The notes below the pieces were generated by a model. That model saw nothing but the letters and a program-made list of their open reading frames with translations, did not search any database and had not been told where the DNA came from. This document shows positions 45,702 to 47,914 of a DNA stretch of 64,000 nucleotides, piece by piece. Made by a program: the position numbers and the translations under genes. Every line of letters begins with the position of its first letter. Position 1 is the first letter of the stretch. Source of the stretch: an uncultured beta proteobacterium. Lineage in GTDB: Bacteria; Pseudomonadota; Gammaproteobacteria; Burkholderiales; Burkholderiaceae_C. Location: the NCBI GenBank assembly GCA_903905735.1, contig CAIVHU010000121.1, positions 24,989 to 88,988 on the forward strand, given 5' to 3'.

Positions 45702-45763
45702 GCAGAGTTTGTCAACTTGTTACAACGAGCATGCATTATCGGTCGTGCAGGTAGAATTCATAG

Positions 45764-46075
45764 CGTCAGGAGAGCGCGGCCCCAACCAACTGGTTATGTG
45801 GCAGCCGCCGAAGGCGCAGAACCGCTGATTGCAGTGGTTTGAACGCTCAGGCAAAAGGACTGACAACCGTTTTTCACTCGCCAGAGTTCAAAACGTATCC
45901 CCACTGGAGAGAGGCGCATCACCTAAAACGTGAGTCGCCCACCGAAGGAGCAACCCGCAGTCAGCCCGCCGCTTTGGCAGGCCACGGCCCGGCGAATCTC
46001 TCAGGTAAAGCGGACAGCGGGAGCAGCCTGTGGCCAGACACTCTGTGTCGTCACGGATTTTTTTTGTCTGCCCCT
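45764..46075 (+). ncRNA. Tandem glycine riboswitch (aptamer I about 45768-45864, aptamer II about 45903-46025) plus expression platform
   Basis: GGAGAGCG...CCGCCGAAGGCGCAGAAC...CGCTCAGGCAAAAGGACTGAC and GGAGAGAGG...CCACCGAAGGAGCAACCC...CTCTCAGGTAAAGCGGACAGCGGGAGC; directly before gcvT. Confidence 0.95.
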
Positions 46076-46085
46076 GGAGTGACTG

Positions 46086-47234
46086 ATGTCCGCATCGCCT
46101 GAAGCGCTTTTGAACGTTCCCCTCAATGACCTGCACGTCGCACTCGGCGCGCGCATGGTGCCATTTGCCGGTTACAGCATGCCGGTGCAATACCCCAGCG
46201 GCCTGATGGCAGAGCACAAACACACCCGCACCGCTGCGGGCCTGTTTGACGTGTCGCACATGGGCCAGTTGCGACTGGTCGGCCCCGATGCAGCGGCTGC
46301 GCTGGAAGCCCGGCTGCCGGTCGATGTGATTGACTTGGCGGTGGGCAAACAGCGTTACGGCCTGTTGCTCAATGACGAGGGCGGCATCATCGACGACCTG
46401 ATGTTTTTCCGCCAGGCCGCGAACGAGATTTTTGTCATCGTCAACGGCGCCTGCAAGGTCGGCGACATCGTCCATATCCAGGCCAAGATCGGATCGCGCT
46501 GCGAGGTGATCCCAATGCCCGAATATTCCCTGCTGGCGCTGCAAGGCCCGCAGGCGGTGAACGCGCTATCGCGGCTGGCACCTGGGGTGGAAAAGCTGGT
46601 GTTCATGACCGGCGGCAACTTCACCGTCAGCACCGGCTCGCAAGACATTCACGTGTTCCTGACCCGCAGCGGCTACACCGGCGAGGATGGCTTCGAGATT
46701 TCGGTGCACGAATCCGACGCACTGGCGCTGGCCAAGGCCTTGTTGGCGCAGCCTGAAGTCAAGCCGATCGGCCTGGGCGCGCGCAACTCGCTGCGTTTGG
46801 AAGCCGGGCTGCCGCTGTACGGCAACGACATCGACGCCACCACCACCCCGGTCGAAGCCAGTCTCAACTGGGCCATACAAAAGGTGCGCCGCACGGGTGG
46901 TGCGCGCGCAGGCGGTTTTCCAGGTGCTTCAAAAATACTAGCGCAACTCGCAGATTCAACGGGGGCTAAAAGTCGAAAACGTGTTGGACTCATGGCACTG
47001 GAGCGCATCCCCGTGCGTGAACACACCGAGCTGCAAGACCTTCATGGCACACGCATTGGTGAAGTCACCAGCGGCCTGCTCGGCCCCACCATCGACCACC
47101 CCATTGCCATGGGTTACCTGCCACCCGCCATGGCAACCGTGGGCACCCATGTCAACGCCATTGTGCGTGGCAAGCCCGTCAAAATGGAAGTGGTGGCTAT
47201 GCCTTTTGTGCCGACCAACTATTTCCGTGGCTAA
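46086..47234 (+). CDS. gcvT: Glycine cleavage system T protein (aminomethyltransferase)
   Basis: [70 protein letters not shown]. Confidence 0.96.
46925..46977 (+). repeat. Possible dispersed element (ACGGGGGCTA subtype) in gcvT
   Basis: TGCTTCAAAAATACTAGCGCAACTCGCAGATTCAACGGGGGCTAAAAGTCG. Confidence 0.4.
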
Positions 47235-47302
47235 CGGCAAGAAGCAAATAGCCAAATTGTCAACCAACGCCTTGTTCAATGCAGTTTGCAACACAGCGTC
47301 TA

Positions 47303-47407
47303 GCAGCGTGCGCTGGGTGCGTAACGCAGCGAAGTCAAGGAGGAGGCTTGGGGCAACAGCCCCAAGCCGGGGGACATGAGCGGAGTTACGCACCCAGCGT
47401 GCGCTGC
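47303..47407. repeat. 105 bp nested inverted repeat (REP/BIME-like) in the gcvT-gcvH spacer
   Basis: Arms GCAGCGTGCGCTGGGTGCGTAAC (47303-47325) and GTTACGCACCCAGCGTGCGCTGC (47385-47407), 21/23 complementary; central perfect hairpin GGCTTGGGGC-AACA-GCCCCAAGCC (47345-47368). Confidence 0.85.
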
Positions 47408-47425
47408 GGGTAAAAAGTCAAACAC

Positions 47426-47501
47426 TTCAAGTTCAAGTTCAAGTTCAAGTTCAAGTTCAAGTTCAAGTTCAAGTTCAAGTTCAAGTTCAAGTTCAAGTTC
47501 A
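47426..47501. repeat. Hexanucleotide microsatellite (TTCAAG)12 plus TTCA
   Basis: Uninterrupted tandem TTCAAG from 47426 to 47497, ending 39 bp before the gcvH ATG. Confidence 0.98.
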
Positions 47502-47539: not shown

Positions 47540-47914
47540 ATGAGCATCAAATACACCCCCGACCACGAATGGGTCCAGATCGACGGCAACCACGCCACCG
47601 TAGGCATCACCCACCATGCGCAGGACGCGCTGGGCGACGTGGTATTTGTCGATCTGCCCGAAGTCGGCAAAACCTACGCTGCCAAAGACGCGGCCGCCGT
47701 GGTCGAGTCAGTCAAGGCCGCCGCTGACGTATACATGCCCGCCAACGGCGTCGTCACCGAAGTCAATGAAGCCTTGCGTGCTGACCCAGCCCTGGCCAAC
47801 TCCGACCCGCTGGGCGCGGGCTGGTTCTTCAAGATGGCCCTGGCCAACCCGGCCGAGCTCGACGGCCTGATGGACGAAACCAGCTACACCACTTTTGCCG
47901 CTGACGCGCACTAA
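47540..47914 (+). CDS. gcvH: Glycine cleavage system H protein
   Basis: YTPDHEWVQIDGNHATVGITHHAQDALGDVVFVDLPEVGKTYAAKDAAAVVESVKAAADVYMP (lipoyl-Lys motif). Confidence 0.97.
   Translation: MSIKYTPDHEWVQIDGNHATVGITHHAQDALGDVVFVDLPEVGKTYAAKDAAAVVESVKAAADVYMPANGVVTEVNEALRADPALANSDPLGAGWFFKMALANPAELDGLMDETSYTTFAADAH

Follow-up and report, generated by a model that had tools for sequence, protein, structure and literature searches.

The gcvT-gcvH spacer of an uncultured beta proteobacterium contains a 105-nt inverted repeat (positions 47303 to 47407, forward strand), and this locus raises the question of whether the structure serves the gcv genes or is one copy of something dispersed through the genome. 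All positions refer to the window, the 64,000-nucleotide stretch of DNA that was analyzed, and all features given below by position lie on its forward strand. The gcv operon starts with an ordinary tandem glycine riboswitch (45757 to 46027) ahead of gcvT (46086 to 47234; named from its open reading frame and in the preliminary description), which ends 68 bp before the element. The downstream gene, gcvH (47540 to 47914), starts 132 bp after it.

The whole element is one long hairpin. Its 23-nt outer arms (47303 to 47325 and 47385 to 47407) form 21 Watson-Crick and two G-U pairs, so that 23 of 23 positions are paired in RNA. The arms enclose a middle helix (GCGAA at 47329 to 47333, opposite 47377 to 47381), which is partly mismatched in this copy and fully paired and covarying in other copies. 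Within the purine-rich, asymmetric internal loop, the two parts of the core, TCAAGGAGGAG (47335 to 47345) and CGGGGGA (47368 to 47374), border an inner hairpin (47345 to 47368) of 10 perfect base pairs (47345 to 47354 with 47359 to 47368) and the loop AACA. The folding energy is -75.4 kcal/mol, compared with -40.8 ± 3.1 kcal/mol for dinucleotide shuffles (z = -11.2; none of the 200 shuffles folded as well), and the window has a single occurrence of the core TCAAGGAGGAG...GGGGGA, with zero expected. The hairpin is real and far beyond chance. The preliminary description had reported a 105-bp nested inverted repeat with arms matching at 21 of 23 positions and a perfect 10-bp central hairpin; its coordinates were exact, the hairpin was borne out, and the other two arm positions are the G-U pairs. 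It had also reported two purine-rich single-stranded tracts, the letters of which were quoted correctly, but short covarying paired stretches lie inside them.

No Rfam match was found at the element when the window was searched at the gathering threshold, and four element-bearing loci compared with Rfam up to E = 5 gave nothing above chance. No promoter-like or terminator-like signal was detected at the site, and an intrinsic terminator, taken as a GC-rich stem followed by a T run, was rejected, the stem here being followed by GGGTAAAAAGTC. The suggestion that the purine tracts resemble Shine-Dalgarno sequences did not hold up, as AGGAGGAG does not vary among copies, whichever way they face relative to the genes. 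A leader peptide with such a site was likewise rejected: the ATG is lost in orthologues (GACATT in genomes G004, G069, and G010; handles beginning with G, C, and L are ours for genomes, contigs, and loci), and antisense copies retain the core.

Two further repeats were noticed close by. A perfect hexanucleotide array, (TTCAAG)12.7, lies between the element and gcvH (47426 to 47501); the orthologous spacer has about five copies in G069 and about one in G004, so the array expands and contracts independently of the hairpin. Inside gcvT (46930 to 46990), AAATACTAGCGCAACTCGCAG...AAAACGTGTTGGACT recurs in the gcvT genes of many relatives. It looks foreign to its surroundings, and it may be another repeat of the Comamonadaceae, one that has turned into coding sequence.

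The preliminary description had proposed a blastn or covariance search and had named the absence of other copies as the outcome that would speak against it; other copies were found, and that objection falls. With the element as the blastn query, the whole genome of the window (5.26 Mb in 353 contigs) gave 47 matches, nine of which, including the element itself, were strong (E < 1e-10) and near full length, with a weak tail. Seeded with TCAAGGAGGAG, a search for the exact core (TCAAGGAGGAG, a small hairpin, and CGGGGGA) found 22 sites in this genome versus 0 for a reversed-pattern control, and a covariance model gave 34 matches.

In an alignment of the 22 exact-core copies (A1, no manual editing), neither TCAAGGAGGAG nor CGGGGGA varies, the arms are almost free to differ, and the inner hairpin keeps its pairing while its length and sequence differ. 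Two-sided changes occur at 31 of 35 structure pairs, including all 23 outer pairs; the covariation score is 0.77, versus 0.24 in shuffles and ≤0.15 with one side slid, and 89.7% of paired cells are paired, versus 61% in shuffles and 28 to 43% with one side slid, figures that are counts and not probabilities because the structure was partly derived from the same sequences and the copies are related. The effect size and the slide control leave little doubt that pairing is conserved. The middle helix, GCGNN/NNCGC, covaries through GCGAA/TTCGC, GCGGA/TCCGC, GCGAC/GTCGC, and GCGGC/GCCGC (the last in L014 and L040). Copies are 92 to 107 nt long, with 23-bp outer arms.

We also observed a fixed hairpin insert of about 18 nt, GCG|TGGACTTGGGGTTTTGCC|AA, at an identical position within the core in 21 of 29 examined sites (L344, G000:C130:73166-73188, minus strand; L155; L211; and L334 to L361), the arms of which are quite different. 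This combination suggests either shuffling of modules or site-specific insertion. The TGGACTTGGGGTTTTGCC sequence is also found outside the family, after ...AGGCC in another repeat (L351, L354, and L362). In addition, a repeat of about 470 bp, with 79 to 85% identity and at least five copies in the genome (L041, L042, L050, L055, and L056), contains, besides one element of a different subfamily, a second long hairpin that is unrelated and lies about 200 nt upstream.

The copies are often arranged in pairs, and the pairs have a strongly preferred orientation. Among 74 close pairs (<300 bp), 70 were "-+", 2 were "+-", 2 were "++", and none was "--". Core-to-core distances cluster at 107 to 140 bp, with 110 and 112 bp being the commonest, and four pairs in one genome (G291) have 48 bp from arm to arm. 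Divergent pairing with constrained spacing is a REPIN-like architecture. In several genera, a pair joins a type 1 hairpin, with the foot CGTCTAG...GCTGCGGGTTAA, to a partner with the foot GGATCAGG...CCTGATCC or to another type. The gcvT-gcvH copy is a type 1 hairpin that has no partner; its flanks, ACAGCGTCTA (47293 to 47302) and GGGTAAAAAG (47408 to 47417), are common to other type 1 copies, in which the consensus is CGTCTAG on the 5' side and GCTGCGGGTTAA on the 3' side. An autonomous version, in which a gene would lie between divergent hairpins, was looked for and rejected: the only wide pair (L220, 1.6 kb) holds an ordinary metabolic open reading frame.

Covariance model R1 matched 31 of 37 genomes of the window's genus, with up to 37 copies per genome, and 1 of 24 genomes of other families in the same sample. 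Matches were found in at least 10 of 250 genomes across the order, representing three families, and in at least 4 of 276 genomes across the class, representing one further family outside the order. Among named genomes, the core pattern was found in at least Rhodoferax, Hydrogenophaga, Acidovorax, Curvibacter, Rubrivivax, and Rhizobacter, and the matches listed in the pattern scan also included Ideonella, Roseateles, Ramlibacter, Methylibium, and Luteimonas, the last belonging to a different order from the Burkholderiales carriers. Going by these names, the genus of the window is probably Rhodoferax. The occurrence of the family is therefore patchy: most of one genus carries it, as do Luteimonas and a few more families of the Burkholderiales. 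Annotated plasmid records yielded only weak Variovorax matches, without annotation, and a literature search of open-license papers found no paper describing the core.

Gene context was taken from a simple codon-usage gene caller made for the purpose, as distinct from curated annotation, and by this caller 122 of 132 classified sites were intergenic and 10 lay in predicted genes. The intergenic sites comprised 85 between co-directional (tandem) genes, 31 between convergent genes, and 6 between divergent genes; copies avoid divergent promoters. Of the single copies between co-directional genes, 31 faced along the direction of transcription and 26 opposed it.

The mismatches in the stems are biased toward one strand. 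G-U and A-C mismatches are expected to be equally common in a neutrally decaying palindrome. Read on the AAGGAGGAG strand, 258 elements had 642 G-U and 222 A-C mismatches, about 3:1, counts that are inflated, as is the covariation, by kinship among copies; after clustering by similarity, 19 clusters favored G-U and 4 favored A-C. The ratio was 223:59 in copies co-directional with their flanking genes and 174:60 in opposed copies. Since the excess is found on the AAGGAGGAG strand in either gene direction, it points to a single strand that folds in its own right. The AAGGAGGAG strand appears to be selected to fold single stranded, largely independently of the direction of neighboring transcription, and folded single-stranded DNA would be the simplest reading of the bias.

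Orthologous spacers provide a view of how individual copies change. The gcvT-gcvH element is present, in the sense orientation, in five species (G000, G024, G004, G069, and G010) and absent from G079 and the other relatives inspected; because most relatives lack it, gcv regulation does not require the hairpin. Among these orthologues, 5 of 29 pairs changed from one Watson-Crick pair to another on both sides, and there were 15 G-U and 0 A-C mismatches. At a second site, L010, the genomes G000, G069, G009, G004, G024, and G002 share a divergent pair that G079, G070, and G025 lack. The left hairpin of this pair, to which the statistics apply because two orthologues of the right hairpin were out of register, had changed on both sides at seven of 24 pairs, and 23 G-U mismatches and one A-C mismatch were counted in it. 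At the same site in G010 (L299, G010:C203), the left hairpin is orthologous and the right one has been replaced by another type with different arms. The L010 region was seen three times in G002, on different contigs (L297, L303, and C148), possibly reflecting a duplicated gene neighborhood or a mixture of strains.

In Luteimonas terricola, units of about 290 to 400 bp that are about 90 to 97% identical lie at different places. Judged from the sequences compared, these site histories would fit a repeat that once spread and was then kept or homogenized, which does not imply present movement. Copies held at one site across several species are as compatible with old or domesticated elements as with active ones. 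At the compared spacers, no target duplication or exact junction was definable, as the empty spacers are too diverged, and no movement was observed.

A family that is multicopy, extragenic, patchy, and divergently paired, with arms that evolve together, reads as a REP/REPIN-like repeat. We propose, with a probability of roughly 0.55, that the gcvT-gcvH element is a copy of a non-autonomous REP/REPIN-like hairpin repeat family that acts as folded single-stranded DNA. In this view, the unit would be one long hairpin whose purine-rich internal loop does not vary; often two of them stand back to back, separated by a short spacer, and the gcvT-gcvH copy would be the remnant of such a unit, reduced to one hairpin. 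We speculate that the AAGGAGGAG strand folds while single stranded, for example, during replication, that its internal loop is recognized by a recombinase or transposase encoded elsewhere, and that this enzyme could spread and homogenize the copies. Where it is transcribed, the gcvT-gcvH hairpin would be expected to protect the upstream mRNA or to hinder read-through.

No mobilizing gene was found for the family. Nearly every genome of the genus (G001 to G036; e.g., L100, L103, and L111) has one gene for a Y1 (RAYT-like) transposase of about 240 amino acids, and the three Y1 genes examined had no matching REP alongside. The core was absent from the flanks retrieved for 29 PF01797 (Y1/RAYT-type) loci, and blastn detected no flanking element at RAYT-type genes. 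All six genomes of the genus that lack the element carry PF01797 genes, and no such gene was found in G034, which has 24 copies of the element. RAYT is a poor candidate for the mover, given that Y1 genes are found in element-free genomes, are missing in G034, and have no core near any of them.

An alternative hypothesis is that the AAGGAGGAG strand acts as RNA, either as a free small RNA or as a cis-acting element for mRNA stability or processing, the family then being dispersed RNA genes. Strong covariation, an excess of G-U over A-C on one strand, and an invariant internal loop would all be at home in a structured RNA, as would the uniformly sense gcvT-gcvH copies, which lack A-C mismatches. 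We nevertheless consider this rather unlikely, as single copies between co-directional genes lie in either orientation without preference, copies opposed to their genes retain the G-U excess, divergent pairing places one copy antisense in any read-through transcript, and the gcvT-gcvH site has neither a promoter or terminator nor an Rfam match. The same strand bias bears on the idea that arm complementarity arises from template-switch repair of quasi-palindromes, with a folded strand that has no function. Such repair makes coordinated arm changes without selection, and orthologous arms do change together; however, it is strand symmetric and predicts neither a 3:1 excess of G-U over A-C nor an invariant unpaired core, so that we regard this as very improbable.

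The site histories raise another possibility, namely, that the element is a binding site for a host function or a DNA landmark of the nucleoid, gyrase, or termination type and is not a mobile repeat. Several copies hold their positions across species though the surrounding spacer is not alignable, and the core stays invariant while the arms drift in coordination. The absence of the family from 6 of 37 genomes of the genus and from most of the order, however, indicates that it is dispensable, its positions are not conserved genus-wide, and Luteimonas, in a different order, is also a carrier; a landmark role therefore seems quite unlikely to us.

If the REP/REPIN-like reading is true, paired-hairpin repeats with clear architecture and covariation are widespread in freshwater and soil Burkholderiales and offer a clean case for studying how noncoding hairpin DNA spreads without a linked transposase. 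They would also allow selection on a folded single strand to be tested, with the invariant internal loop as a candidate protein-binding site. The covariance model could be used to annotate intergenic repeats in Comamonadaceae that are easily mistaken for regulatory RNAs or leader sequences. It is conceivable, if doubtful, that the family represents a previously undescribed class of single-strand-folding mobile repeats, with free arms, a fixed purine loop, back-to-back arrangement, and a mover other than a linked RAYT, shared by Burkholderiales and Luteimonas.

Known REP families have a GTAG tag, a palindrome of 20 to 40 bp, and usually a RAYT gene. The present family is not a classical REP: it lacks both a GTAG tag and a linked RAYT gene, and its arms are very long. 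A REP/BIME-type mobile repeat was the best of the three guesses in the preliminary description, correct in that the element is multicopy and extragenic and forms inverted doublets, but the known REP families do not include it, the GTAG tag, short palindrome, and RAYT gene all being missing. Integron attC sites, which have an R''/R' pair, RYYYAAC ... GTTRRRY, also fold from a single strand into imperfectly paired hairpins whose terminal part varies. The element shares these general properties of folding, and attC was rejected because the inspected copies showed no convincing R''/R' pair around the stem, no cassette array, and no linked integrase.

REPINs, described in Pseudomonas fluorescens SBW25, are made up of two REPs in inverted orientation, with a spacer of constrained length and with compensatory changes (PMC3116915). 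Our family resembles them in being noncoding and dispersed as extragenic inverted doublets with a constrained, less-conserved spacer, compensatory changes, and a strand that appears to fold. It differs in that TCAAGGAGGAG, and no GTAG/GTGG tag, precedes the inner hairpin in 22 of 22 aligned copies; in being a hairpin of about 100 nt with variable arms around an invariant internal loop, unlike a palindrome of 20 to 40 bp; in numbering tens and not hundreds of copies; and in the lack of a RAYT gene next to the copies tested.

TnpA-REP (RAYT) of E. coli, Stenotrophomonas, and Marinomonas recognizes one strand, REP and not iREP, as folded single-stranded DNA (PMC8266576), which parallels the one-strand G-U bias reported here; GTAG is required or favored in that system, and REPtrons join the gene to REPs, neither of which was seen in our family. 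The REPs tagged with an unpaired GTAG or CGTC at their end (PMC3733652) also lie mostly between co-directional or convergent genes, often as close pairs in opposite orientation, but our element lacks their end tag and exceeds their length of 20 to 40 bp. The main text of that study does not mention Rhodoferax, Acidovorax, Polaromonas, Delftia, or Burkholderia.

The only published candidate for identity is BRE, a GC-rich, mostly intergenic repeat of about 90 bp (75 to 91 bp) in Bordetella, Polaromonas, and Delftia that extends to Comamonadaceae, with 4 copies in Rhodoferax ferrireducens (PMC3110155). Similar size, GC richness, intergenic location, and occurrence in Betaproteobacteria, including Comamonadaceae, would allow our family to be BRE, in which case only its structure and architecture would be new. 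We consider this identity unlikely, as BRE is described as forming head-to-tail tandem arrays of variable copy number (PMC3110155), whereas our 92- to 107-nt units form divergent pairs and are essentially never tandem (2 "++" and 0 "--" of 74), a comparison made between descriptions. We postulate that the family, set apart from BRE by description only, is a variant of the REP/REPIN kind and probably works as REPs and REPINs do.
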